DNA from: Limibacillus halophilus
GTDB lineage: Bacteria; Pseudomonadota; Alphaproteobacteria; Kiloniellales; CECT-8803
DNA: 64,000 nt
Assembly (NCBI RefSeq): GCF_014191775.1
Contig: NZ_JACHXA010000001.1
Location: 186,001 to 250,000 of the forward strand
Direction: 5' to 3'
Part shown: positions 29,285-51,818 of the stretch, piece by piece
Position numbering within the stretch: the first letter of the stretch is position 1
Layout: each line of letters begins with the position of its first letter
Program-made: the position numbers and the translations under genes
The notes under the pieces: generated by a model
Database searches by the model: none
Told to the model about the DNA's origin: nothing
Seen by the model: the letters and a program-made list of their open reading frames with translations, nothing else

Positions 29285-30781
29285 CTATTTCATCGTCGGC
29301 ATGACAAACTCGGCCCCTGCCCGGATACCTGTCGGCCAACGCGAGGTGATCGTCTTCATTTTGGTGTAAAAGCGCACACCCTCGGGGCCATGCATATGAT
29401 GGTCGCCGAACAGGGAACGCTTCCAGCCGCCAAAGGAATGAAAGGCCATGGGGACGGGAATCGGTACGTTGATCCCTACCATGCCCACCTGAATACGGCT
29501 TGCGAAGTTGCGCGCCGCGTCTCCGTCACGGGTGAAGATAGCGGTTCCGTTTCCATACTCATGGGCGTCGATCATCTCAACAGCCTTCGCATAGTCGGGT
29601 ACGCGGACGACGGAAAGAACCGGACCAAAGATCTCCTCTTTGCAAATACGCATGTCTGGCTGAACTTCGTCGAACAGACAGCCGCCCAGGAAGTAACCGT
29701 TTTCGTATCCCTGCAGGCTGGTATCGCGGCCATCGACGACCAACTTCGCCCCCTCCTGAACGCCCAGATCCACATAGCTGCGGACCTTGTCCAGGTGTTG
29801 CTTGCTGACCAGCGGGCCCATTTCCGCTTCCGGATCGTTCCAGGGGCCGATCTTCATACCGCGGACACGCGGCTCCAGACGCTCAAGCAGAGCATCGCCT
29901 GCGTCCCCGACGGCGACTGCCACAGAAATCGCCATGCATCGTTCGCCGGCCGAACCATACCCCGCGCCCATCAAGGCGTCGGTTGCTAGATCCATATCCG
30001 CATCCGGCATGATCACCATGTGATTCTTGGCACCGCCCAGCGCTTGAACACGCTTATTGTGGGCCGTGCCGGTGTGATAGACGTACTCGGCAATCGGTGT
30101 CGAACCTACAAAACTGACAGCGGCGATATCGGGATGCGACAGAATGCGGTCTACCGCCTCCTTGTCGCCGTTCACGACGTTCAAAACGCCTGCAGGCGCG
30201 CCTGCCTCCATCATCAATTCGGCAAGCAGTAATGGCGCGGAAGGGTCTTTCTCAGAAGGCTTGAGGACAAAAGTGTTTCCACAGGCGAGCGCGACCGGGA
30301 ACATCCACATCGGCACCATGGCCGGGAAGTTGAAGGGCGTGATTCCGGCAACCACACCAAGCGGCTGACGCATTGAATGGCTATCGACGTTGGTTCCGAC
30401 GTTCTCGCTGAACTCGCCTTTGAGAAGATGCGGAATGCCCGTGGCGAACTCCACCACCTCAATGCCGCGCGTAACTTCTCCCATGGCGTCACTCAGAACC
30501 TTGCCATGCTCCTTGGAGATCAGGGTTGCAAGCGCTTCACGGTTGTTCTCCAGAAGCTCCTTGTACTTGAAAAGCACTCGAGCGCGGTTCAACGGCGTGG
30601 TCGCGGACCAGGTTGCTAGCGCCTGTCGGGAGGACTCGATAGCGGCATCCACCTCACCAATCGTCGCCAGCGCAACCTCGGCGGCCTGCTCTCCGGTAGA
30701 AGGGTCAAATACCGGGGAAAACCGCGTGCTATTGCTCTCAACTCTCACGCCACCGATGAAATGGTGGATCTTCGTCGCCAT
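29285..30781 (-). CDS. mmsA: Methylmalonate-semialdehyde dehydrogenase (CoA-acylating)
   Basis: 498 residues from the ATG at 30781, preceded by AAGGAG. It is an aldehyde dehydrogenase family protein with [13 protein letters not shown] (cofactor-binding region typical of MmsA/IolA), [17 protein letters not shown], and [14 protein letters not shown] carrying the catalytic Cys. These signatures separate MmsA/IolA from ordinary aldehyde dehydrogenases that use EL-GGK. It converts methylmalonate or malonate semialdehyde to propionyl- or acetyl-CoA in valine or inositol breakdown. No iol or mms neighbour is present, so valine versus inositol cannot be decided. Confidence 0.9.
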
Positions 30782-37885: not shown

Positions 37886-39166
37886 TTACTCGCTCGATCC
37901 TGTGATCAAGCGAGCGCCGCGATCGTAGGTAGCATAGGCCCAAGCCCAGTCTAAGATCACCCCCAGCCGGTTCCTGTGGCCAATCAAAAAGTAAATGTGG
38001 ATCAAGCTCCACAGCAGCCACGCGGGAAATCCGCTCAATCGCAGAGGCCCAAACTCGGCAACCGCGGCTTTGCGGCCGAGCGTCGCTAGGTTGCCGTAGT
38101 TGCGGTAGCGAAACGGCGGCAGTGGAGACTGGGTATGAATATGGCGTGCGATCGATCGTGCTGCGTAGCGGCCCATCTGCTTCGCCGCAGGCGCCACTCC
38201 CGGCACGGCCACGGACCGCGCATCGACAAGCGACGCCGTATCTCCAACGACATAAATGCGCGGATCGTCAGGCAAGGTCAGGGTTCCGGAAACCAGCACT
38301 CTTCCTGCGGCATCCCGGTTGCTGTTAAGCCAGCGCGCGGCAGGAGACGCCATGACGCCGGCGCTCCAAACAGCACAGTTGCTTTCGATCGTACTTCCGT
38401 CGGCAAGCTTGACGACCCCGGCATCAAAAGCGGCCACTGCAACGCCGGCGATAACCTCGACCCCCAGTGCTTCAAGCTGCTTGCGTGCAGCAAGCGACGA
38501 CGGCTCGGAGAAGGTTGGCAGCAAACGCGGACCGGCCTCCACAAGGATCACGCGGGCGGTGCCCGGATCGATTCGGCGGAAGTCCTCGGCCAATGCCTTG
38601 CGGGCCAACTCGGCGATGGCGCCCGCCATCTCGACGCCCGTCGGGCCGCCGCCCACTACGACGAAAGTCAGCAACCGCTGCACCTCCGCGTCACTGGTGG
38701 CGTTCTCCGCTTGCTCAAACGCGAGCAACACGCGACGGCGGATCAAGGTTGCGTCGTCAATCTTCTTGAGGCCGGGCGCCGTTTCCTCCCACTGGTCGTT
38801 GCCGTAATAGTTGTGCCGCGCTCCCGTGGCCACAATGAGGTAGTCGAACGCGAAGGTCTGCGTTTCCGTCGTCACCACGCGGCGGTCGCGGTCGATGCCG
38901 ACAACACGGTCCATGACGGAGCGTGTGTTCTTCTGCCCGCGCAGAATTCGCCGGATTGGCGCTGCTATTTGCGCCGGTGACAGGCCCGCTGTCGCAACCT
39001 GATAGAGCAGCGGTTGAAACAGGTGATAGTTGCGCCGGTCGATCACCGTGACTCGCAGCGGAAGCCCTGCAAGAGCCCTTGCGGCCGAAAGACCCCCGAA
39101 GCCAGCACCAATAATCACCACTTCCGGCAATCGACCGCCGTTTTCCTTGCTGCCAGACACAGCCAC
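37886..39166 (-). CDS. NAD(P)/FAD-dependent oxidoreductase (type II NADH dehydrogenase-like)
   Basis: 426 residues. The N-terminal GAGFGG (20-25) is the FAD-binding dinucleotide fold and VVVGGGPTGVE (about 167-177) the NAD-binding one. VYVVGDTAS precedes the second flavin contact. A C-terminal hydrophobic, aromatic stretch (about residues 375-400) suits membrane attachment as in NDH-2 enzymes. It is the last gene of the bufferin operon (4-base gap after the DoxX gene), where a respiratory flavoprotein is not part of the basic set. It may recycle electrons for the DoxX partner; that is inference. Confidence 0.85.
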   Translation of the reverse strand: MAVSGSKENGGRLPEVVIIGAGFGGLSAARALAGLPLRVTVIDRRNYHLFQPLLYQVATAGLSPAQIAAPIRRILRGQKNTRSVMDRVVGIDRDRRVVTTETQTFAFDYLIVATGARHNYYGNDQWEETAPGLKKIDDATLIRRRVLLAFEQAENATSDAEVQRLLTFVVVGGGPTGVEMAGAIAELARKALAEDFRRIDPGTARVILVEAGPRLLPTFSEPSSLAARKQLEALGVEVIAGVAVAAFDAGVVKLADGSTIESNCAVWSAGVMASPAARWLNSNRDAAGRVLVSGTLTLPDDPRIYVVGDTASLVDARSVAVPGVAPAAKQMGRYAARSIARHIHTQSPLPPFRYRNYGNLATLGRKAAVAEFGPLRLSGFPAWLLWSLIHIYFLIGHRNRLGVILDWAWAYATYDRGARLITGSSE

Positions 39167-39170
39167 GATC

Positions 39171-39647
39171 CTACCTCCCTGCGGTCAGTAAACGAGTCAG
39201 CAGATAATCACAGGAGAGAACCCCGCCGCCTCGCGCGATCAAGAGAATGAGAAGCGACGCCCAGAGCAGATGCTCGCCCCAGTTACCTGGGAAGACGAAA
39301 AGCTGGATCGTCGCCGTTACCCCAAGCAGGGCCAGGGCCCCAAACCGGGTCATCAAGCCAAAGAACAACAGGACCGCGCCGCCCAGCTCGGCAGCCGTGC
39401 CAAGCACGGCGGCAAGCTCCGGCGACAGCAGGGGAACCTGATATTCATAGGCAAAAAGCTGCTGGGTGATCTCCCAACTCGCGAGCTTCGACTGCGCCGA
39501 TTTCCAGAACAGACTGGCCAGCGCCACCCGACCCATGACTTGGACGAGCGACAACGGTACGCGTTCAACCGCCTCGACGACCCGTCGTAGCGCACGAGGG
39601 GCCGCCATATCGGCGATGGACCGAAGGGATAGAGTTTGTGAGTTCAT
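39171..39647 (-). CDS. bufD: DoxX-family membrane protein (BufD-like)
   Basis: 158 residues with four hydrophobic segments. VMGRVALASLFWKSAQSKL and AAELGGAVLLFFGLMTRFGALAL are characteristic of the DoxX family, membrane quinone-linked redox proteins. In bufferin operons such as the Caulobacter one, a DoxX protein is the fourth gene, after precursor, MNIO enzyme and partner, exactly the order seen here on the minus strand. Its precise task is not established. Gaps of 15 and 4 bases to its neighbours support co-transcription. Confidence 0.8.
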   Translation of the reverse strand: MNSQTLSLRSIADMAAPRALRRVVEAVERVPLSLVQVMGRVALASLFWKSAQSKLASWEITQQLFAYEYQVPLLSPELAAVLGTAAELGGAVLLFFGLMTRFGALALLGVTATIQLFVFPGNWGEHLLWASLLILLIARGGGVLSCDYLLTRLLTAGR

Positions 39648-39662
39648 AACACACTTCCTTTC

Positions 39663-40460
39663 CTATTGATGGTTGGCATTGAGGGATATGCCGGTGACGA
39701 GCCCCTCTCCGAAAAGATCCAAAAGCTCGACCGCCAGATCGAAGAACCGATCACGGTTCAGCGCGACCCGGGCGGACTGCTCGATGCTGTACCCATGGGC
39801 CAGAGCGTGGCGAAAGGCGAAGGTTGCACGGCCCTGTTTCTGGAGGCGGACATTCCGCGCATCCCGCTTGAGAATGTTGTAGGTCGTTTCGCGGAGCGGC
39901 ACCGGCGGCGCGCTGGGATCGGCAGGCTCTCGAAGCTCTTCCCACAATGGCAAGACCGACCAGCGCAAAACGAGGAATTGAAGCGACGGCTGCAAAAGCA
40001 GACGGACATCCGCGCCCTCCTTCAGAAGCTTGAACAGCACCTGCGGTTCCAGCGCGCCGCACGCGCGTTCCAGCGCCGCTTGCGCAAAAGCCCACTCCAG
40101 GCGCGCGACATCCGCTAAATAGCGATACTCCCGGCACGCCGGGAAACGAGCGATGTAGTCCGGAAGCGCCGCGCCGTAGTGGGTAAGCCGAGGCTCGCTC
40201 GGCGGATTTGAACGAATGAAACCATCGGCGAGATAGGCAAAGAAGCGGTCGTCCACCAACCTGACCGTGACAGGGAAGGTCGCCTTCAAAGCAGCTGTCA
40301 GCGTCAACAACGTGGTGTCCCGATAAACGGCAATCCGATCCTGGATCGCCTTATTGCCGATCACCGCATCATCCTGAATGGTTTCGGTTAATCCCGCAGG
40401 TTCTTTGCGGCCGAGGACGACATCGCTCAAGCGCCCTTGAATGCAATCAAGCGAAGACAT
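39663..40460 (-). CDS. bufC: BufC/HvfC-family MNIO partner protein (DUF2063)
   Basis: 265 residues. The N-terminus (DRIAVYRDTTLLTLTAALKATFPV ... FIRSNPPSEPRLTHYGAALPDYIA) is the DUF2063 domain, once annotated as putative DNA-binding but now known as the partner that helps DUF692 enzymes bind their precursor peptide (MbnC/BufC type). The C-terminal half carries FAFRHALAHGYSIEQSA. It overlaps the MNIO gene by 14 bases. It therefore probably forms a BufBC complex acting on the BufA peptide. Confidence 0.88.
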   Translation of the reverse strand: MSSLDCIQGRLSDVVLGRKEPAGLTETIQDDAVIGNKAIQDRIAVYRDTTLLTLTAALKATFPVTVRLVDDRFFAYLADGFIRSNPPSEPRLTHYGAALPDYIARFPACREYRYLADVARLEWAFAQAALERACGALEPQVLFKLLKEGADVRLLLQPSLQFLVLRWSVLPLWEELREPADPSAPPVPLRETTYNILKRDARNVRLQKQGRATFAFRHALAHGYSIEQSARVALNRDRFFDLAVELLDLFGEGLVTGISLNANHQ

Positions 40461-41451
40461 CGCGAACCTCCTTCAGATTGAGCGCTTGTACGTGCGGTTG
40501 TGTTGTTTGGGTCCTAGGGGATGAACGTACACTTCTGTCACATTCGGTGGTGCAGTTCGCCGGTGTCCGTGCCGGGGTCGTTTCATCCCGATCGGCTGCG
40601 TTGCTTGACGCCACGCTGTCCGCAAGCAGATCGGCCCGCGCTGCCTCTTCCAGCAGAACCGTCAAGGGCGGAAGAGCGGAATCCCATTCAATCAAGGTCG
40701 GCTGCGGCCCGGCCATGTGCAGGGCCGCACGGTAGAGCGCCCAAACCGGGCGGTCCACGCGAGATCCGTGATCGTCAATGAGCAGGGGGCCACCTTCGCC
40801 GTCGATCCGGCGATGACCGGCCAAGTGTATTTCGCCAACAGCGGTGGCGGGCAATGCCCGGAGGTATGCCAGAGCGTCCAAACCGAGATTGTGGGCCGTA
40901 ACATAAACGTTGTTGACGTCGAGAAGCAGACCGCAACCGGTGCGCCGAACCAAGGCGGACAGGAACTCAGGCTCACTCATTGTCGCGTGTTTGAAATCCA
41001 GATAGGCGGAGGGATTCTCGATCAGAACTCGACGCTGAAGCCGTTCCTGCAAGCGCTCGACATTCCGTGCGACAACCGAGAGCGCTTCTTCGGTAAGCGG
41101 CAAGGGTAGCAGGTTGTTGAGGTATGCGCCGTCATGGACCGACCAGGAAAGGTGCTCGGATACCTGGGCAGGCTGATAGCGTTCGACCACGGCCTGCAAG
41201 CGCGATAGATGCGTCTCGCAAATACCCTCGGCAGAACCAAGTGAAAGCCCGACACCATGAAGGGAAATCGGGTAGGCGCTCCGAAGCGTCTCCAGATCAT
41301 CGGCGGCGGCGCTGTCATTCATGAAGTTCTCTGCATGAACCTCCAGCCAGCCGACCGATGGCCGCCGCTCAAGCATCTCCGCGATGTGGGGGTGACGCAG
41401 GCCTATGCCCGCGTTGGCGGGGAGGCAAGATACTTGAGCGAATGCGGTCAT
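40447..41451 (-). CDS. bufB: MNIO oxidative RiPP-modifying enzyme (DUF692, BufB-like)
   Basis: 334 residues from the ATG at 41451, which has TGGAG seven bases upstream. Longer readings run out of frame through the precursor gene and are rejected. The DUF692 TIM barrel is clear: GIGLRHPHI (His20), LEVHAENFM (His39, Glu41), SLHGVGLSLG (His65), SEHLSW (His100), LENPSAYL-like IENPSAYL, LLLDVNNVYV and GEIHLAGH, which supply the His/Asp/Asn/Glu ligands of a multinuclear iron centre. Such enzymes (MbnB, BufB) oxidise Cys residues of a peptide into heterocycles using O2. It lies 53 bases after the precursor gene. Confidence 0.9.
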   Translation of the reverse strand: MTAFAQVSCLPANAGIGLRHPHIAEMLERRPSVGWLEVHAENFMNDSAAADDLETLRSAYPISLHGVGLSLGSAEGICETHLSRLQAVVERYQPAQVSEHLSWSVHDGAYLNNLLPLPLTEEALSVVARNVERLQERLQRRVLIENPSAYLDFKHATMSEPEFLSALVRRTGCGLLLDVNNVYVTAHNLGLDALAYLRALPATAVGEIHLAGHRRIDGEGGPLLIDDHGSRVDRPVWALYRAALHMAGPQPTLIEWDSALPPLTVLLEEAARADLLADSVASSNAADRDETTPARTPANCTTECDRSVRSSPRTQTTQPHVQALNLKEVRDVFA

Positions 41452-41504: not shown

Positions 41505-41783
41505 TCAGCTGTTCTTGGGTTCGGTTGAGCCGCCCGCAATTTTGCCGCACGCTCCGGCTGGCAGATAAATCCAGGCATCGGCCTGCTGGTCGGTCTTGGA
41601 CGTGCCGGCACAGGAGCTGTTTGCCGTCTGGCAGTCGTTCTTGCCTGCGCTGACGACGCCGTAGCACTTCTCGAACTTGAAATCCGGCTTCGGCGCCGGA
41701 CCGGTCTGAGCGCTGGCGGTAGCTGCCGCCAAAGTGGCGGCGGCGGCGACGGCGGAAAGAACCAGGTGCTTCGTGTTGATCAT
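41505..41783 (-). CDS. bufA: Bufferin-type RiPP precursor (DUF2282, BufA-like)
   Basis: 92 residues from the ATG at 41783, preceded by GAGGAGAC. It has a signal peptide (MINTKHLVLSAVAAAATLAA, cleavage near ASA/Q26), then a short mature peptide with four Cys (40, 51, 58, 79) in the DUF2282 pattern KCYGVV, KNDCQT, SSCAGTS and DAWIYLPAGAC. In characterised bufferins the central Cys residues are converted to thiooxazoles and the peptide binds copper in the periplasm. It is the first gene of the operon bufA-bufB-bufC-doxX-flavoprotein. The 41-bp element A lies about 100 bases upstream. Confidence 0.88.
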   Translation of the reverse strand: MINTKHLVLSAVAAAATLAAATASAQTGPAPKPDFKFEKCYGVVSAGKNDCQTANSSCAGTSKTDQQADAWIYLPAGACGKIAGGSTEPKNS

Positions 41784-41881
41784 TGGAAGTCTCCTCATTA
41801 AAGGTTGCGCATTGCGTAGGTTCATCGGAGGCAAGGCGGTTGCCTGCCCTGCAACCAATGTCGTCCGCTGCCGTTTGAATC

Positions 41882-41922
41882 TGAAATGCCAATCAGTGAT
41901 GGTTTCGATAGAGCTGACGTAT
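41882..41922. promoter_or_regulatory. 41-bp regulatory element, copy A (bufA)
   Basis: TGAAATGCC, 10 bases, GGTTTCGATAG, then GTAT 16 bases after TTTC. The spacing is identical to copies B, C and D. GAAAT and GTTTC form a near-perfect inverted repeat with 14-base separation. It lies 99 bases upstream of the bufA start, between bufA and the terminator of the patatin gene. Probable binding site of a LysR-type regulator (inference). Confidence 0.65.
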
Positions 41923-41939
41923 CGGGCATCGAAGGCGAT

Positions 41940-41972
41940 GAAAAAAAACCTCCCGATTTCTCGGGAGGCTCC
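41940..41972 (-). terminator. Rho-independent terminator of the patatin gene
   Basis: CCTCCCGA and TCGGGAGG form a perfect 8-bp stem with a TTTC loop. An eight-to-nine-base A run on its left reads as a T run on the minus strand. It lies about 50 bases after the patatin gene and insulates the bufferin operon from it. Confidence 0.88.
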
Positions 41973-42019
41973 GGCAAACAGTCCGAAAGGTGCAGGGAGG
42001 GACGTGAATAGCTTGTGGG

Positions 42020-43108
42020 CTAGAGGAACCGCGCCTGGATATCGATCGTGGTTTCCTTGCCGATGTTCTCAAAGTTTTCCTGGAGCCAGAGCCCGGCCCG
42101 CTCGCGGCCCGTATCACGCAGCATGGTGAGAAAAGCCCAGTCGGCGTTGAGTTTGCTGCGGGCGCCCAGTTCCAGCATCACATCGTCGGCAGCGATCCCG
42201 TGTATCAGCATGCGCTTCAAATCAAGCTTGTTATCAACATCCTTATCGATCAGGTCGCTGACGAAGGCGATCGCCCTCATTTCGCGCATGAGCGACGAGT
42301 TGAAGCTGATTTCGTTGATGCGACTCATTATCTCGCTCGAAGTGCGGGGCACTTCTTTTCTTTCCAGCGGGTTGATATGCACGATCAGAACATCCCTGGT
42401 CGCACAGCTATAGATCAGGGGGAAGATCACCGGATTCCCCATATAGCCACCATCCCAGTAGGACTCGCCGTCGATCTCGACCGCCTGGAACAAGAACGGA
42501 AGACAGGCGGAGGCCAGCACGGCATCGCTTGTTAGCTGGGCATTGTCGAACACCTTGATCTTACCTGTACGTACGTTCGTGGCCCCCAGGAACACCTGTA
42601 CTGGACAGGCGGCATTCCGAAGCACGTCGAAATCGACCGACTGCTCCAGCACCCGGCGCAACGGGTTCACGTTGTAGGGGTTGAACTGGTAGGGCGAAAA
42701 CAATCGCGAGACCACGTCGAACCAGAGAAACATGGGGGAATGGTCCAGCGACCAATCCTTCATCGCGCGGTCAAACTCCGATGGCTGTAGTATACCGAAG
42801 GCCGCCGCGTGGCTGATCCGACGCCAGAAGTTCGCAAGCGCCTTCTTCGCGCCTTCCCGCCCGCCCGCGGCCAAACCATAGGCCAGAACAACGGCGTTCA
42901 TGGCGCCGGCGCTGGTGGCGGCAATGCCTTCGAATGAGAGGCGGTCATCTTCCAGCAAACGGTCGAGTACGCCCCACGTGAACGCTCCATGGGCTCCGCC
43001 GCCCTGAAGAGCCAGGTTCAAGGTCTTGGTTCCAGGAACGCAGCCGCAAACACCGTGGTCCGGCATTTTGGTCCCGGATTGCGGCGATCTGGATGTCTGA
43101 ACGTTCAT
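42020..43108 (-). CDS. Patatin-like phospholipase
   Basis: 362 residues from the ATG at 43108, preceded by AAGGAG. LALQGGGAHGAF (about 33-43) is the oxyanion-hole motif and ATSAGAMNAV holds nucleophile Ser66. The catalytic Asp is in WDGGYMGNP. Patatin proteins cleave acyl chains from lipids. Orthologues are frequently paired with 3-hydroxybutyrate dehydrogenase in PHB-making alphaproteobacteria, as here (36-base gap), which suggests a role in storage-polymer or lipid turnover. Confidence 0.88.
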   Translation of the reverse strand: MNVQTSRSPQSGTKMPDHGVCGCVPGTKTLNLALQGGGAHGAFTWGVLDRLLEDDRLSFEGIAATSAGAMNAVVLAYGLAAGGREGAKKALANFWRRISHAAAFGILQPSEFDRAMKDWSLDHSPMFLWFDVVSRLFSPYQFNPYNVNPLRRVLEQSVDFDVLRNAACPVQVFLGATNVRTGKIKVFDNAQLTSDAVLASACLPFLFQAVEIDGESYWDGGYMGNPVIFPLIYSCATRDVLIVHINPLERKEVPRTSSEIMSRINEISFNSSLMREMRAIAFVSDLIDKDVDNKLDLKRMLIHGIAADDVMLELGARSKLNADWAFLTMLRDTGRERAGLWLQENFENIGKETTIDIQARFL

Positions 43109-43144
43109 CGCTTTTCTCCTTCTCCGGCCTCTCGGCATCGGGGG

Positions 43145-43975
43145 TTAATGCGCCGTCCAGCCGCCGTCGACCGGCAGGGCCGCGCCGGTGATCGACGCGC
43201 CGCCATCGGCGCAAAGGAATGCGGCAAGCGCGCCGATTTCCTCGACGGTCGCAAAACGCTTGTTGGGCTGCTGAGCCAGGAGGATCTGACGAATAACCTC
43301 CTCGCGCGGAATGCCGTGATTCTTGGCTTGGTCCTCGATCTGCTTTTCCACCAGAGGAGTCCAGACGTAACCGGGACAAATGGCATTGCAGGTGACGCCC
43401 GCCTCCGCGCCTTCAAGAGCGACGCATTTGGTCAAGCCGATAATGCCGTGCTTGGCCGCCACGTAGGCTGCTTTGAACGGTGAGGCGATCAACCCGTGAG
43501 CGGAGGAAACATTCACGATCCGCCCCCAGCCACGTTGTTTCATGCCGGCGAAGACCAACCGGGTCATATGGAAAGCCGAGGACAGGTTGATGGCGATGAC
43601 CGCATCCCACTTGTGCGGCGGGAAGCTCTCGACGGGCGATACGTGCTGAATACCTGCGTTGTTGACCAGAATATCGACCGGCCCGAGGGCATCGTTGGCG
43701 TGCGCGACCATGCGCGCGATCTGTTCAGGACTGGACATGTCGGCGCCGTCGTATGCCACGTCGACATCATTCTGCAGGGAGAGCTCGCCGCGAATCCGCT
43801 CAATCTCCTCGGCGTCGCCGAAGCCGTTCAGCAACACTGCGGCACCGTTCTCTGCAAGCGTTCGCGCTATGCCTAGCCCAATGCCGCTGGTGGAACCGGT
43901 CACGATCGCAACCCGGCCTTCCAGAGCGCGCCGGCGGCGTGCGGAGGGGCGAGTGGCGAAACTGGTGTCGTACAT
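43145..43975 (-). CDS. bdhA: 3-hydroxybutyrate dehydrogenase
   Basis: 276 residues of the classical short-chain dehydrogenase family. The cofactor loop is TGSTSGIG (27-34), NNAGIQHV follows, the catalytic Ser is in NVSSAHG and YVAAKHG gives Tyr-x3-Lys. VNNAGIQHVSPVE and NKRFATVEEIG are signatures of D-3-hydroxybutyrate dehydrogenase, which oxidises 3-hydroxybutyrate to acetoacetate with NAD. The N-terminus is about 15 residues longer than usual (basic ARRRRALEG). AAAGGAGG stands before the ATG. It is divergent from lysR with element B between. Confidence 0.9.
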   Translation of the reverse strand: MYDTSFATRPSARRRRALEGRVAIVTGSTSGIGLGIARTLAENGAAVLLNGFGDAEEIERIRGELSLQNDVDVAYDGADMSSPEQIARMVAHANDALGPVDILVNNAGIQHVSPVESFPPHKWDAVIAINLSSAFHMTRLVFAGMKQRGWGRIVNVSSAHGLIASPFKAAYVAAKHGIIGLTKCVALEGAEAGVTCNAICPGYVWTPLVEKQIEDQAKNHGIPREEVIRQILLAQQPNKRFATVEEIGALAAFLCADGGASITGAALPVDGGWTAH

Positions 43976-44055
43976 TTTTTACCTCCTTTGAAAACTGTAT
44001 GCCTGTCTGAAGGGGCAGGCCGATAGGAGGACGATGCGCTTATCCGGCTCGCTGG

Positions 44056-44096
44056 TGAAATGCCGCCGTGATATGATTTCGATAGCCAGGGAGTAT
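44056..44096. promoter_or_regulatory. 41-bp regulatory element, copy B (bdhA/lysR)
   Basis: TGAAATGCC, 10 bases, GATTTCGATAGCC, then GTAT in the conserved place. GAAAT-N14-ATTTC is a perfect inverted repeat. It sits in the divergent region between bdhA (81 bases) and the LysR gene (75 bases), the usual place for LysR autoregulation. Confidence 0.7.
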
Positions 44097-44170
44097 TGGA
44101 TAAAGATTGGCTCGTTGGTCCAAGATTGGAAAGTTGCGGTGAAAATGGCACCTCGAAAGGACTTAGCGCC

Positions 44171-45079
44171 ATGGAGATGCATCACATCCGATACTTCCTC
44201 GCGGTCTGCGAAACATTGAATTTCACGCGGGCTGCGGAGAAGTGCAACGTTACTCAACCGGCGCTCAGCCGCGCCATTCAACAGCTCGAAGACGAGATCG
44301 GCGGCCTGCTTCTGCGCCGCGAAAGGGGTCTCACTCACATTACCGACCTCGGCGCGCTGCTCCGGCCGCGATTGGCACAGATCCTGGAAAGCGCCGAAGG
44401 CGCGAAACACGATGCTAAGCGTTTCCTGACCTTGGAGCAGGCAAGTGTGACTTTGGGTATCATGTGTACCGTCGGCCCTACCCGTTTCACCGGCCTGCTG
44501 GCCGACTTTCAGGCCCGGCATCCCGGTATAGAGTTGAAGTTGATCGAGGGAATGCCTGGGGCGCTCTGCGAGCAGCTTGGCGCAGGCGAGCTGGACGTCG
44601 CGATCATGAGCGACCCAGACGGCTTTCCCGAGCGTTTCAACAGCCATACCCTTTACAGGGAACGCTTCGTTCTGGCCTTTCCCTTCGGACACCGTTTTGC
44701 AGCCATGAGCGAGATCCCGGTCGCCGCAATCCACGGCGAGAATTACCTTCGGCGATTGAATTGCGAGTACCGCGACAACCTGCTTTCGCTCTGCCAGGTG
44801 CAGCATGTGGGCTTGCATCTGGCTTACGCCAGCGAGCGTGAGGACTGGATTCAGAACATGGTCGCCGGCGGTCTGGGAATCTGTTTCATCCCCGAGTACA
44901 GCGCCGTCCTCCCTGGCATCAAGACGCGCCCCGTCGTCGAGCCGGATGTCTGGCGGGAAATTTCGCTGGTGACCGTTTCCGGGCGCCGTTTCTCGCCTGC
45001 GGTCGCCGCCTTCGTGCAGGCGGTCAAATCCTATAAGTGGGCGCCGCCCGCGAGTGGCGCGCGGCTAAGCGCCGCTTGA
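44171..45079 (+). CDS. LysR-family transcriptional regulator
   Basis: 302 residues from the ATG at 44171, with AAAGGA nine bases upstream. The N-terminal winged HTH reads HHIRYFLAVCETLNFTRAAE followed by CNVTQPALSRAIQQLEDEIG, a textbook LysR DNA-binding domain. The C-terminal co-inducer domain (about 90-295) begins VTLGIMCTVGP and holds Cys residues at several positions. It is divergent from bdhA-patatin. Because copies of the same 41-bp element lie next to its own promoter and near bufA, the cupin/methyltransferase pair and the Cys/His peptide, it is the leading candidate regulator of all of them. Confidence 0.9.
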   Translation: MEMHHIRYFLAVCETLNFTRAAEKCNVTQPALSRAIQQLEDEIGGLLLRRERGLTHITDLGALLRPRLAQILESAEGAKHDAKRFLTLEQASVTLGIMCTVGPTRFTGLLADFQARHPGIELKLIEGMPGALCEQLGAGELDVAIMSDPDGFPERFNSHTLYRERFVLAFPFGHRFAAMSEIPVAAIHGENYLRRLNCEYRDNLLSLCQVQHVGLHLAYASEREDWIQNMVAGGLGICFIPEYSAVLPGIKTRPVVEPDVWREISLVTVSGRRFSPAVAAFVQAVKSYKWAPPASGARLSAA

Positions 45080-45096
45080 ATCCGAATCGATAACCC

Positions 45097-46317
45097 TCAA
45101 CGGTGACCGCGGGGCGTTGCCAGCCGCGTCGCGCATACCAGCGCCAGCAGCAACGCGACAACCAATCCCGCAACGGTTGCCGGCCAGCCGAACAAACTGA
45201 AGAGCTGACCCAGGACAGCGCTACCGAAAAGACCTCCGCAGTAATAGGACGCCAGATAGAGCCCGCTAGCCGCCCCGCGGTCACCGGTTGCGGCGCTGCT
45301 GACGTATCCGGTTGCAGCCGCCTGGGCGAAGAAGGTGCCGACGGCGACCAGCACAAGCCCCAACAGGACCGCAGATAAGCTTGGCAAGAGCAAAAGCGGC
45401 AAGCTGAAAAGCGCCAGCGCCAGCGCACCCAGGAAGGTCGGCCGCGACCCGAAACGCTGTACGGCGCGACCGGCCAGGGGGGTGGTTATGATAGAGGGTA
45501 GAAAGACGAAGTAGACAAACCCAAGCTGCATGGCATCGAGCGCCAGCGGTTCGGCGACCAGCAGGAAATTTACATAGGTGAAGGCGCCGATGAAAACGAA
45601 CAGGATCAAGAATCCCAGCAGAAAGGCCGGGCGCAACAGAGGGTTGCGCAGATGCTCGGCCCAGGCCGCGAAAATCGGCGGGCGCGGTCCGGCATCCGCC
45701 ATCATAGGGGTGACTCCACGCAGGCTATAGAAGACCAGCAGAGCACCCGCCAGATTAAGTCCCGCAAGGATCGCGAAGTTGGCTGAAAGCCCAAGATGAT
45801 CGGCAATGGCCGCCGACATCAATCGACCCAGGAAGTTACTGGCGACGTTGCCGGTCACATAGGCGGCCAGGGCGCCCGCTTTCTCCTCGGCGCTGCATTG
45901 CTCCGCCAGATAGGCGACCGTCAGCGTGAAGGAGGCCGACATGAAGACGCCCTGCAGGACACGAAGAACCGTGAAGGTCGCCAGATCGGGCATGGTGGCC
46001 AGCAGCAGCGTCGGGACCGCCAGGAGCGAAAGGCTCACCCAGATACCCTTGCGGCGATTGATGCGGCGGCTAAAGAGCGCCACCAGCAACCCGGAGACCG
46101 CCATACCGAACGTGCTGGCGTTGACGGCGACCCCCATCTCCGCCGGCGTCGCATCGTAGGCCGCCGCCAGGCTCGGCAGGATTGCCTGGGCGGCGAAAAG
46201 ATCGATCAAGGTCAAGAAACTGATTACGCCGATCACAAGCGCCCGGATGCGGCGTGCAGTCGCTTGGCTGCCTCTGACGGTCGGGGGAAGCGTGGAAACG
46301 GGGGTTATGCTGGACAT
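45097..46317 (-). CDS. MFS efflux transporter (AraJ/YgaY-like)
   Basis: 406 residues from the ATG at 46317, preceded by AAGGAA. About 12 hydrophobic segments are present. NASTFGMAVSGLLVALFSRRINRRKG contains the motif A loop between helices 2 and 3, and GVFMSASFTLTVAYLAE the helix 4-5 antiporter region, typical of drug:H+ antiporters of the DHA1 type. It is convergent with lysR. Its upstream region (46318-46477) does not contain the 41-bp element. Substrate unknown. Confidence 0.85.
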   Translation of the reverse strand: MSSITPVSTLPPTVRGSQATARRIRALVIGVISFLTLIDLFAAQAILPSLAAAYDATPAEMGVAVNASTFGMAVSGLLVALFSRRINRRKGIWVSLSLLAVPTLLLATMPDLATFTVLRVLQGVFMSASFTLTVAYLAEQCSAEEKAGALAAYVTGNVASNFLGRLMSAAIADHLGLSANFAILAGLNLAGALLVFYSLRGVTPMMADAGPRPPIFAAWAEHLRNPLLRPAFLLGFLILFVFIGAFTYVNFLLVAEPLALDAMQLGFVYFVFLPSIITTPLAGRAVQRFGSRPTFLGALALALFSLPLLLLPSLSAVLLGLVLVAVGTFFAQAAATGYVSSAATGDRGAASGLYLASYYCGGLFGSAVLGQLFSLFGWPATVAGLVVALLLALVCATRLATPRGHR

Positions 46318-46477
46318 GGCGCAATTCCTTGCAACAAGAAGCGGCGTGGCGCCCAGTCGCAAGAACCGAAGTTGCTAGGACCAAGAGCGCCACGGACGCT
46401 AAACAACGGACGATTAGATGGGGATGACGCAGGAACCCGAGGCGACGGCTGAGTCGCGGTCCTGATGTCACCACCGA

Positions 46478-46969
46478 TTACATGACCTTCGCGTCGTCCT
46501 TCTTGACGTGAAGGATGTCACTGGAGATCAGCACCACAGGTTCGTTGCTGTTGTTCTTCCACCAGTGCGCCAGCCCGACGGACTCCTTGGCCGCGTCGCC
46601 GGCCTTGTGCTCGATCGGCACCGCACAGTTGCTGGAGTATTCAGTGATGGCGCCGGACACGATGTAGATCAGCGCCGGACGCTCGCCGTGCGAATGCCAA
46701 GGCACGACACCGCCGGGCTCGACAACCAGACGGCGCATACGGAACTGCGTGTCTTCCAGTTTTACCGCCTGGGTCGCCAGGTCGATATGGCTCAGCACCG
46801 TGTCGGAAACGCCCTTGGGTTCGGTCTCGCCGGACTGGCGAACGCCCTGTTTAACCTGGTCGGCCGGACATTCTCCGGCGGAAGCGCCGGGCGAAAGCAG
46901 GGCCGTCGCGCCGAGCAGCAGCCCGGCGACAAGAAACCGCGAACCGCGGCCGATAGCGAAGTGGGTCAT
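46478..46969 (-). CDS. Periplasmic cupin-domain protein
   Basis: 163 residues. The signal peptide runs to about residue 30 (LVAGLLLGATALLSPGASA). A small cupin follows, with RRLVVEPGGVVPWHSHGERPALIYIVSG (His-x-His metal ligands and Glu) and a distal His in VGLAHWWKN. The mature N-terminus ECPADQVKQG and a second Cys (SSNCAV) could form a disulfide. Related proteins are of unknown function or annotated as quercetinase-like. It is divergent from the methyltransferase with element C between, 84 bases from its start. Confidence 0.8.
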   Translation of the reverse strand: MTHFAIGRGSRFLVAGLLLGATALLSPGASAGECPADQVKQGVRQSGETEPKGVSDTVLSHIDLATQAVKLEDTQFRMRRLVVEPGGVVPWHSHGERPALIYIVSGAITEYSSNCAVPIEHKAGDAAKESVGLAHWWKNNSNEPVVLISSDILHVKKDDAKVM

Positions 46970-47005
46970 GGCAGTAAACTCCTTTGCTCAAAGCCGGTTG
47001 CGCCG

Positions 47006-47100
47006 GACGCGGGCAACCTGATGAGCAAAGGTAGGGAAGGCTCCGCCTCGCGTGAAATGCCGTTCCCCTGTCATTTCGATAACCGGAATGTATGGTGGGA
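47006..47100. repeat. 95-bp imperfect direct repeat, left copy
   Basis: Matches 47976-48070 at an offset of exactly 970 bases. The first 33 bases are identical and the rest roughly three-quarters identical. It contains element C. The methyltransferase gene lies between the two copies. Confidence 0.85.
47053..47093. promoter_or_regulatory. 41-bp regulatory element, copy C (cupin/methyltransferase)
   Basis: TGAAATGCC, 10 bases, CATTTCGATAACC, GTAT in register. GAAAT-N14-ATTTC is perfect. Divergent position between the cupin gene and the methyltransferase gene (59 bases to its ATG). Confidence 0.7.
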
Positions 47101-47151
47101 AGAAAAAAGACAGGGCCCTCTCGCCAGGGCGGCATGTTTGGGAGGATGTGA

Positions 47152-47970
47152 ATGATGGCCAAAGAGGAAAACTTCCAGCTGGAGGGCGATGCGCCGCGCC
47201 TCTACGAGGCTGAAAAGGTTCCCGCAATCTTCACGGCGCTTGCCGAAGCGACGCTCGAACGCGCTGGTGTCACTGCTGGTGCGCGCGTGCTCGACGTCGC
47301 TTGTGGAACGGGGATTGTGGCCCGTCTTGCCGCTGCGGCAATGCCGCCGGGCAGTATCGTCGCCGGTATCGACCAGAACGCGGGGATGCTCCGCGTTGCT
47401 GCGGCGGTGGCCGAACAAACGGGATTGGTCATAGACTGGCGGCAATGCGATGTCTGCGCCATGCCCTTCGCGTCCGCAAGCTTCGATCTGGTCTTTTGCC
47501 AACAGGGATTACAGTTTTTTCCGGACAGGGCCGGGGCATTGCGCGAGATGGCGCGTGTGCTGACTCCTCGTGGCCGCCTGGCGCTAACCGTCTGGAAGTC
47601 AGTCAGTCCCTATGGCGCGGCGCTTTCGAGGGCTCTCACCAGATTTGTCAGCCGCCGCGCAGGAGAGCGCGCTCTGGCGCCCTTTTCATTCGATGAGACG
47701 GACGAAATTGCCGTCCTGGCGGGTCAGGCGGGATTCATGGACGTGAAGTCGGAATGCTTTACGATTCTGAGGCGGATGGGACCGGCCGAGGAGTCAATTC
47801 TAGCCGACATCGCAGGCATGCCCTACGCAGGCGAAGTGGCGGCAATTGCCGCCGACAAGAAAGCCGCTCTCGTCAATCAGGTCGCCGGAGACCTCAAAGA
47901 TTTCAAAGTGCCGGGCGGGTACGCTATCCCCTGCGAAACCTTCCTCGTCACCGCCACGCGCGCGGCCTGA
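47152..47970 (+). CDS. Class I SAM-dependent methyltransferase (UbiE-like)
   Basis: 272 residues. ARVLDVACGTGIVARLAAAAM is motif I, IVAGIDQNAGML motif II and SFDLVFCQQGLQFF the motif II-III segment, followed by FPDRAGALREMARVL. This is the Methyltransf_11/25 pattern that methylates small molecules or quinones. GGGAGG stands 7 bases before the ATG. The gene is bracketed by the 95-bp direct repeats, as if promoter region and gene formed a duplicated or inserted unit. Substrate unknown. Confidence 0.85.
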   Translation: MMAKEENFQLEGDAPRLYEAEKVPAIFTALAEATLERAGVTAGARVLDVACGTGIVARLAAAAMPPGSIVAGIDQNAGMLRVAAAVAEQTGLVIDWRQCDVCAMPFASASFDLVFCQQGLQFFPDRAGALREMARVLTPRGRLALTVWKSVSPYGAALSRALTRFVSRRAGERALAPFSFDETDEIAVLAGQAGFMDVKSECFTILRRMGPAEESILADIAGMPYAGEVAAIAADKKAALVNQVAGDLKDFKVPGGYAIPCETFLVTATRAA

Positions 47971-47975
47971 AAAAC

Positions 47976-48070
47976 GACGCGGGCAACCTGATGAGCAAAG
48001 GTAGGGAAAGCCCCGCCTTGGATGAAATGCCGCTCCTCTGTCAATTCGCTAGCCGGAATGTATTGCGGGG
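47976..48070. repeat. 95-bp imperfect direct repeat, right copy
   Basis: Second copy of the 47006-47100 sequence, beginning 6 bases after the methyltransferase stop. It carries element D and faces the small Cys/His-rich peptide gene. Confidence 0.85.
48023..48063. promoter_or_regulatory. 41-bp regulatory element, copy D (Cys/His peptide)
   Basis: TGAAATGCC, 10 bases, CAATTCGCTAGCC, GTAT in register. Slightly degenerate on the right arm (AATTC instead of ATTTC). It lies 137 bases before the ATG at 48201, with no minus-strand gene next to it, so the peptide gene is its likely target. Confidence 0.55.
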
Positions 48071-50657: not shown

Positions 50658-51818
50658 ATGCCGAAGCTCACTAAGCGTACCGTTGATGCCCTGCAGGCAA
50701 CTGAGAAGGACTTCTTTCTATGGGATAGTGAACTCCCTGGCTTCGGGGTTCGGGTCATGCCTTCGGGTCGCAAGAGCTATCTCATTCAGTATCGCGACGC
50801 TGGGCGGCGTACCCGCCGCAAGGGGCTCGGCAAGCATGGTGTGGTTACAGCTGATGAGGCGCGAACGGAAGCCCGCGCCCAACTGGCTGCCATAACACAG
50901 GGAAGTAACCCGGCGGAAGAGAAGCGCAAGAAGGCGATCGCGCCTGATATCGCTGCGTTATGTGAGCGCTTCATGTCCGAGCATGTCGCCCATCGCTGCA
51001 AACCGAGCACCCAAAATGAGTATCGACGCAACATCGATCGCTTCATCAAACCCGCTCTTGGCAAATATAAGATTGAAGAAGTGACGCGGGCCCAAGTCTC
51101 AGAACTACATCAACGGTTCCACGATAGGCCGTATCAGGCAAATCGGAACCTGGCTGTACTATCGGTCATGTTCAATCGGGCAGAACTTTGGGGGCTACGC
51201 CCCGATGGCTCCAACCCTTGTCGTCATATCCGAAAGTATCCGGAGAAACAGCGGGAACGCTATTTGACCGATGCTGAGTTGAGTAGGCTGGGCGCGACAC
51301 TGCAAGAACTGGAAGCGTCGGGAGAGGAGTCGTTAGCTTCCATCAATGCCATTCGGCTCTTGATCCTGACTGGCTGTCGCCTGGGAGAAGTCTTGACCCT
51401 GCAATGGGACTATATTCGGGAAGACGCCATCTGGCTTCCAGACTCAAAGACGGGCGCAAAGAAGGTCTACCTTGGCCCAGCAACGTTAGAAGTCTTGGAA
51501 CAAATCGAACGGCTACCTGACAACCCTTATGTAATTACAGGGATTAAACCGGGCTCCCACCTCATCAACCTACAGAAGCCCTGGCGACGTATCCGAGCCA
51601 AAGCAGGTTTGGTAGATGTTCGCATCCATGACCTGCGCCACTCCTTTGCGTCTAGCGCAGTTGGTATAGGCGAGAGCTTACCCATGCTAGGGAAGCTTTT
51701 AGGACACACCCAGCCGCAAACCACAGCGCGCTACGCGCACCTGGCAGACGACCGAATGAAGGCCGCAGCCAGTCGCGTCTCTTCCGAGATCGCAGCGAAA
51801 CTCTTAGTTGCGCAGTGA
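50658..51818 (+). CDS. int: Tyrosine-type site-specific integrase
   Basis: 386 residues. An N-terminal DUF4102 arm-binding domain (MPKLTKRTVDALQATEKDFF ... SGRKSYLIQYRDAGRRTR) is followed by a SAM-like core-binding domain and the catalytic domain: Arg241 in TGCRLGEV, HDLRHS (His324, Arg327), LLGHTQPQTT and Tyr359 in ARYAHL. This is the P4-type integrase architecture, which normally targets tRNA genes, in agreement with the flanking tRNA-Arg repeats. It probably both inserts and, with the HTH protein encoded at 53929, excises the island. Confidence 0.96.
   Translation: MPKLTKRTVDALQATEKDFFLWDSELPGFGVRVMPSGRKSYLIQYRDAGRRTRRKGLGKHGVVTADEARTEARAQLAAITQGSNPAEEKRKKAIAPDIAALCERFMSEHVAHRCKPSTQNEYRRNIDRFIKPALGKYKIEEVTRAQVSELHQRFHDRPYQANRNLAVLSVMFNRAELWGLRPDGSNPCRHIRKYPEKQRERYLTDAELSRLGATLQELEASGEESLASINAIRLLILTGCRLGEVLTLQWDYIREDAIWLPDSKTGAKKVYLGPATLEVLEQIERLPDNPYVITGIKPGSHLINLQKPWRRIRAKAGLVDVRIHDLRHSFASSAVGIGESLPMLGKLLGHTQPQTTARYAHLADDRMKAAASRVSSEIAAKLLVAQ

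Follow-up and report, generated by a model that had tools for sequence, protein, structure and literature searches.

Related Systems and the Present Locus

The copper-binding peptides called bufferins form a large family that has been recognised only recently. LysR-type activators of the CatM, BenM and CbnR types work from a distal and a proximal site, carry T-N11-A motifs and have a divergent regulator gene; their ligands come from aromatic pathways, and the operons under their control are catabolic. Both subjects meet in the stretch of DNA analysed here, 64,000 nucleotides from Limibacillus halophilus (contig NZ_JACHXA010000001.1, positions 186,001 to 250,000; hereafter the window), in which an element present in four copies accompanies a bufferin operon and a gene for a LysR-type regulator. 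The reading proposed for it, with a probability of roughly 0.86, is that the element is the operator of this regulator, encoded at 44171-45079, which would activate three transcription units.

Compared with the CatM, BenM and CbnR types, the locus has the same general LysR anatomy, and the structure matches of its regulator fall among LysR-type transcriptional regulators (LTTRs); unlike here, those activators run catabolic operons. The operator of OxyR is the closest in layout. As described in PMC8787470, OxyR sites consist of two ATAG-N7-CTAT repeats with an interval of 7 to 10 bp, and at the oxyS promoter the repeats IR1 and IR2 are centred at -66 and -44 (PMC5002191). The present operator likewise has four arms at 11-bp steps, with predicted centres at -65 and -43, whereas its outer arms are ATGC...GTAT instead of ATAG...CTAT, its end GGCATTTC is nearly invariant, its target genes are others and the LysR protein scores below the cut-off of the OxyR model.

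Regarding bufferin operons, those of Caulobacter crescentus under SigF share the gene set DUF2282-DUF692-DUF2063-DoxX (PMC3511200); they are controlled there by an extracytoplasmic function (ECF) sigma factor and its negative regulator, in contrast to the predicted LysR operator found here together with bdhA-patatin and cupin-MFS units. PMC8719888 lists, from Pseudomonas, a peptide cluster that combines DUF692 and DUF2063 with a LysR gene, so that a LysR gene next to such a cluster is not without precedent. The 2025 bufferin survey describes sigma and anti-sigma genes in Buf1 and not in Buf2 clusters, and the word LysR is absent from it (PMC12452194). No published description of the regulon was found among the matches listed from the open-licence full texts of PubMed Central (PMC), the longer lists being covered in part and most of the papers judged from listings.

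The Proposed Operator and Its Predicted Promoters

The element consists of four arms at 11-bp steps, of which the sequence-only reading had seen three, overlooking the one at offset 15-18. On the plus strand, copies 1-3 read ATGC-N7-NNNT-N7-ATAR-N7-GTAT, and the third arm of copy 4 is CTAG; in the sense of the genes this becomes ATAC-N7-YTAT ... GGCATTTC, followed by the gene. All four copies share one orientation, and bufA, bdhA and the cupin gene all lie on the minus strand, with their start codons 81-99 bp away. The four copies begin where they had been reported (Table 1), while the internal distances required revision: TGAAATGCC and TTTCGATAG are separated by 12 bases and not 10, as all three genome sites found when a gap of 10-12 was allowed have 12, and a pattern with an 11-base gap gave no match in the window at up to three mismatches (a second such pattern gave one unrelated three-mismatch match, at 29439). 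The distance of 19 bases from GAAAT to the second arm holds if it is counted from the base preceding TTTC, and that of 16 from TTTC to GTAT applies to copies 1-3, not to all four. The inverted repeat GAAAT/ATTTC is exact in copies 2 and 3, copy 1 having GTTTC and copy 4 AATTC. Copies 1-3 match the pattern exactly, and copy 4 differs by two mismatches, with AATTCGCTAG where the others have TTTCGATAG.

Genome-wide counts were made with mismatch-tolerant patterns and bit scores with a 44-bp operator model applied to loci. At up to two mismatches, the 3.48-Mb genome holds four pattern matches, which are the four copies, all inside one 6-kb cluster; the genome scan that the sequence-only reading had asked for therefore revealed nothing else at this level and no random scatter. 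Nine more matches, scattered over the genome, appear at three mismatches, the reversed control pattern having one match at up to three. Within the 3-kb loci around these nine, the operator model reaches at most 7.4 bits, compared to 33-42 bits for the four copies, and on these scores they are background. The four-arm pattern gave the four copies and two matches at three mismatches in the whole genome, and its control gave one.

The promoters show a second conserved feature. An alignment of 84 sites, which takes in all four copies from the window and excludes sites that score below 18 bits or point away from the gene, has two isolated conserved columns beyond the operator in gene sense, an A at +21 (78/84) and a T at +25 (76/84); when seven closely similar loci are left out, the values are 51/57 and 49/57. 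Together, these columns are predicted to mark a -10 hexamer of the sigma-70 type at +20 to +25. Computed from these hexamers, and assuming a start 7 nt past them, the operator halves are centred at about -65 (distal) and -43 (proximal), and start sites are predicted near 41850 for bufA, 44024 for bdhA and 47021 for the cupin gene. The ATT of the proximal arm GGCATTTC is identical in all 84 sites and the arm overlaps the -35 region, while no consensus -35/-10 sigma-70 promoter was found, 1.7 being expected in shuffles. As judged from these predicted positions, a distal half near -65 with a proximal half at the -35 region is the classical geometry of a LysR activator. The T-N11-A motif is likewise found in the distal pair, with T in 81 and A in all 84 sites and both kept in window copies 1-4; in the proximal pair, A (column -5) is present in 84 sites and T (column -17) in 58.

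Regarding the mode of action, we infer that a LysR tetramer would occupy the four half-sites, 11 bp apart and on one face of the helix, with the distal pair ATAC-N7-YTAT near -65 and the proximal pair, ending in GGCATTTC, near -43, over the -35 region of a weak sigma-70 promoter. Inducer-bound LysR would then activate bufA-bufB-bufC-doxX-ndh, bdhA-patatin and cupin-MFS, and it would probably control its own divergent gene as well. The signal may be copper or thiol/oxidative stress; judging from the target genes, a role of copper is plausible.

The LysR-Type Regulator

The protein carries the HTH_1 (PF00126) and LysR_substrate (PF03466) domains, both over the Pfam cut-off, and its AlphaFold2 model, with a predicted local distance difference test (pLDDT) score of 91.8, matches LTTR structures. 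The nearest solved structure, by sequence and by Foldseek E-value, is OxyR of Pseudomonas aeruginosa; by TM-score, CcmR is slightly closer (0.77 vs. 0.73 for OxyR). An identity with OxyR was considered and rejected by the curated NCBIfam cut-off: the OxyR model NF008361 gives 104.7 bits against a cut-off of 329 bits, which is passed by none of the 26 matches in the genome. This model is itself narrow, because the control passes its cut-off in one of 14 named genomes. The NCBIfam models GltC, HcaR, CidR, AlsR and PRK09986 score higher than the OxyR model, all far under their own cut-offs.

Cysteine 198 is invariant in the 80 family members and in the nine of set A1; the following Glu199 is kept in the same 80 and is not present in L021 of set A1. 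In the predicted model, C198 is located in a loop between the strand 191-195 and the helix 201-210. It aligns with the cysteine of the wild-type Corynebacterium glutamicum OxyR chain, and in the alignment with P. aeruginosa OxyR C199D it lies one residue before. No conserved resolving cysteine accompanies it, as the nearest column after C198, 208, is cysteine in 32 of the 80 members. Due to the position of this invariant residue near the peroxidatic cysteine of OxyR, a thiol- or metal-based signal is plausible.

Conservation of the Operator in Other Genomes

Comparison across genomes shows that the operator has four arms and is conserved in other species at the promoters of lysR, bufA, bdhA and cupin genes, with a fixed -10 position and a constant orientation. 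The LysR-family scan, with one genome per species, took the best 80 of 587 confirmed stretches, corresponding to 79 loci; from these, 81 lysR upstream regions were obtained (the 79 loci less one lacking upstream sequence, plus the window, L020 and L025). The 44-bp model, which was fitted on the same regions, places an operator at 50 of the 81, and many loci have several. An independent test used the 26 positions common to the bufA and cupin sites of the window: at least 17 matches were seen in 29 of 77 lysR upstream regions (the 79 less one without upstream sequence and one with N), compared to nine of 1540 dinucleotide shuffles.

In the converse direction, an independent model was built from 20 lysR sites of loci without strong (1e-15) buf, bdhA or cupin matches, one of which, L076, adjoins a small cupin-domain gene of another kind. 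At a threshold of more than 10 bits, this model recovers the operator at 22/24 bufA and 21/22 cupin genes, and at 0/22 bufB, 1/23 bufC and 2/23 MFS genes, with none in shuffles. With seven closely similar Mesorhizobium loci left out, the counts are bufA (15/17), cupin (14/15), bdhA (12/29), patatin (2/23), Ndh (3/18, where the training site L064 doubles as the Ndh test site of its locus), DoxX (1/21), bufC (1/16), bufB (0/15) and MFS (2/16). The few matches at genes that are usually internal would fit the gene being first in its unit there. The orientation relative to the gene is constant at 20/22 bufA, 21/22 cupin and 22/23 bdhA sites.

A strict pattern was found at seven sites in six of 385 genomes of the class not selected for LysR, and its reversed control at none; two of the sites are in this genome. 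Of the others, one lies between bdhA and lysR, one between patatin and lysR, one at a Spondin_N gene and two at bufA, where one of the two has a LysR relative of 35% identity next to it. Among other LysR genes used as a control, one of 26 exceeds 15 bits, while six of seven close orthologs have a site of at least 23 bits, the exception being L018, the second of a tandem pair; L020 and L025 among these seven had been used to build the model, and L022 and L095 appear to be a single record. For bufA, the control sample comprised 30 loci, one per genome, from 54 genomes with a match among 144 of the class: the 26 bufA genes whose genomes lack a LysR match at 1e-50 have no site within 500 bp upstream, the highest score being 0.5 bits.

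The whole set Ndh-DoxX-bufCBA, patatin-bdhA, lysR and cupin-MFS is present in Mesorhizobium alhagi, an Ensifer, Taklimakanibacter, a Rhizobiales isolate and Rhodospirillaceae bacterium R-7 (L050, L053, L054, L055, L061). In other Mesorhizobium bdhA is relocated, in Microvirga and Methylobacterium bufA and bufB were not detected, and many of the more distant lysR loci have none of the gene set.

Several variations of the locus were also observed. In seven Mesorhizobium loci (L047-L049, L051, L052, L056, L057), bdhA has moved to a place some 4.6 kb past lysR, next to another LysR gene of 42-43% identity, with its operator kept, and the operator adjoining the main lysR is turned towards lysR. Tandem copies of lysR occur in L055, L060 and L121. 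Operators stand upstream of DUF302 (three loci), DM13, YHS and Spondin_N genes (L050:10917, L055:11896, L107:12701, L107:1282, L114:7888, L181:2758), and a 42-bit operator at L089:10828 precedes a gene for an ECF sigma factor, which may point to a cascade from LysR to ECF in this species. Locus L094 holds a 47% LysR relative with no site above threshold; it belongs to Frateuria defendens, a gammaproteobacterium.

Weighing the Evidence and Other Explanations

A number of observations weigh against a LysR operator of this kind. At 9 bits, 31 of the 81 lysR upstream regions are without the motif, 26 of them belonging to orthologs of at most 50% identity. The ortholog is patchy, occurring at 46% identity or more in nine of 38 relatives including this genome, and among these 38 it is absent from the sole other genome of the same family. 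The bdhA operator is found by the independent model, with the seven Mesorhizobium loci left out, in 12/29 only, and 12 of 35 bdhA-family matches lack the motif at 15 bits. Within the window, the proximal T-N11-A is present in copies 1 and 2 and not in copies 3 and 4, and the start distance assumed for the -65/-43 placement counts here too. One control LysR gene, of 33% identity, scores 19.4 bits, and among the 26 control bufA loci, one shows a site of 16.6 bits at another place within its 3 kb. Finally, in each of the four sampled genomes that have bufA together with a LysR match (35-53% identity), the best bufA copy is without a site: G203 has a site at lysR only and none at bufA; in G112, a 38% LysR lies between two site-less bufA genes and a 13.5-bit site is at a third bufA; and other bufA copies carry a site in G077 and G123, that of G123 being on a different contig from its LysR, around whose gene no site above 14 bits occurs in the stretch read.

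Among the other explanations, repression shares the same protein and site: LysR on the -35 region would block the promoters until an inducer comes. The overlap of the proximal arm with this region is in agreement with it, as is the ability of OxyR-type proteins to repress in one state (PMC8787470), but it is unlikely, as the distal pair at -65 and the lack of consensus sigma-70 promoters fit activation better. Another transcription factor could also bind the element, LysR being merely a member of the regulon, since the lysR promoter itself carries a site and the Mesorhizobium loci hold the second LysR. This is considered distinctly improbable, given the LysR-type features of the element (distal T-N11-A, placement at -65/-43 and the divergent gene) and its occurrence with lysR relatives at 20 loci or genomes in which no buf, bdhA or cupin protein of the window has a strong match nearby.

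The element might instead be a two-box promoter of an ECF sigma factor, with GAAAT as -35 and CGATA as -10, as in the Caulobacter bufferin operons, whose DUF2282-DUF692-DUF2063 genes are described as lower in a sigF mutant under chromium (PMC3511200); the operator upstream of the ECF sigma gene in the relative L089 would also suit it. However, boxes read in this way point away from bufA, bdhA and the cupin gene, the conservation spans four arms over 44 bp and a separate downstream -10, and the element goes with the LysR gene, being absent upstream of all 26 bufA genes in genomes without that LysR, which leaves this explanation very improbable. That the element is a dispersed repeat, intergenic by chance, is hardly credible as a general account, although it may stand for copy 4, which arose by a 94-bp duplication: copies 1-3 have the operator alone in common, the genome has no more copies, and for these three it is refuted by the operator at orthologous promoters in other families.

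The Fourth Copy

Operator 4 is not independent, as it sits in a 94-bp direct repeat of the cupin promoter and leader, five bases past the stop codon of the methyltransferase gene, and this differs from copies 1-3, which resemble one another in the operator alone. It keeps the -10, but transcription from it would run backwards into the methyltransferase gene, whose 3' end is all that lies in its proper direction. The Cys/His peptide beyond it was considered as a target and rejected: of 58 genomes, three encode the peptide, this one among them, and neither of the other two loci has an operator. Copy 4 is probably a relic, or would at most be a titrating site. Consequently, the single regulon under LysR put forward by the sequence-only reading is retained for copies 1-3, with the operator at lysR orthologs and lysR-trained models finding it at bufA and cupin genes elsewhere, and is abandoned for copy 4, a duplicate that faces the wrong way.

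The same 94-bp repeat brackets the methyltransferase gene, which has one distant match (39%, L086) in the 79 loci; it may have been inserted late or be what is left of a tandem duplication.

The Gene Neighbourhood

The features of the locus are collected in Table 1; the domain searches also identify the methyltransferase. The DUF2282 precursor, the MNIO enzyme and the DUF2063 partner by which a bufferin cluster is recognised are all present, the BufA precursor itself scoring 30 bits, below the 60-bit cut-off of the NCBIfam BufA2 model. Due to the terminator-like hairpin between patatin and operator 1, bufA probably has its own promoter; the terminator pattern has eight matches in the region, compared to 6.5 expected in shuffles. 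About 2.6 kb past the fourth copy, an open reading frame at 50658-51818 (+) resembles a tyrosine integrase by eye.

Table 1. Coordinates of the operators, predicted promoter elements, repeats and genes, numbered from the first letter of the window.
Feature	Position	Strand	Basis or remark
Operator 1, bufferin operon	41882..41925	-	+ strand arms ATGC/TGAT/ATAG/GTAT, 7 nt apart
Operator 2, divergent bdhA/lysR intergenic region	44056..44099	-	arms ATGC/ATAT/ATAG/GTAT
Operator 3, cupin-MFS	47053..47096	-	arms ATGC/CTGT/ATAA/GTAT
Operator 4, duplicate of operator 3	48023..48066	-	arms ATGC/CTGT/CTAG/GTAT
Predicted -10 hexamer GACATT, bufA	41857..41862	-	conserved distance from operator 1
Predicted -10 hexamer CATCGT, bdhA	44031..44036	-	conserved distance from operator 2
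Predicted -10 hexamer TACCTT, cupin gene	47028..47033	-	conserved distance from operator 3
94-bp repeat copy A, cupin promoter and leader	47006..47099	.	sequence comparison
94-bp repeat copy B, 87% identical, holds operator 4	47976..48069	.	sequence comparison
Hairpin terminator, 12-bp stem and T tail, between patatin and bufA operator	41945..41972	-	pattern match
NADH dehydrogenase-like flavoprotein (Ndh), after DoxX	37886..39166	-	domain search
DoxX protein	39171..39647	-	domain search
bufC, DUF2063 partner protein	39663..40460	-	domain search
bufB, MNIO maturase	40447..41451	-	NCBIfam MNIO_BufB over cut-off; Pfam; start codon chosen manually
bufA, DUF2282 bufferin precursor	41505..41783	-	Pfam DUF2282
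Patatin-like phospholipase, downstream of bdhA	42020..43108	-	domain search
bdhA, 3-hydroxybutyrate dehydrogenase family (SDR)	43145..43975	-	NCBIfam PHB_DH over cut-off
lysR, proposed regulator, LysR-type, invariant C198	44171..45079	+	Pfam; family alignment; structure model
MFS transporter, downstream of cupin	45097..46317	-	domain search
Cupin protein	46478..46969	-	domain search

Significance for Bufferin Regulation

As far as sequence comparison reaches, the regulon is conserved in alphaproteobacteria, local in the genome and patchily distributed. A broader interpretation is offered tentatively and is held to be rather less than an even chance: that one group of bufferins has its alphaproteobacterial sensor in this undescribed LysR clade, which would read copper or copper-driven thiol oxidation through C198 and would couple the production of copper peptides, through one four-arm operator, to 3-hydroxybutyrate/lipid metabolism (bdhA-patatin), a cupin, an efflux transporter and, elsewhere, DUF302, YHS, DM13 and ECF sigma genes. 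What is new is a candidate regulator of bufferins together with its operator, predicted start sites and a list of targets. The inducer, and the puzzling link between copper-peptide and 3-hydroxybutyrate/lipid genes, thereby become testable, and the operator provides a sequence handle for further co-regulated genes.

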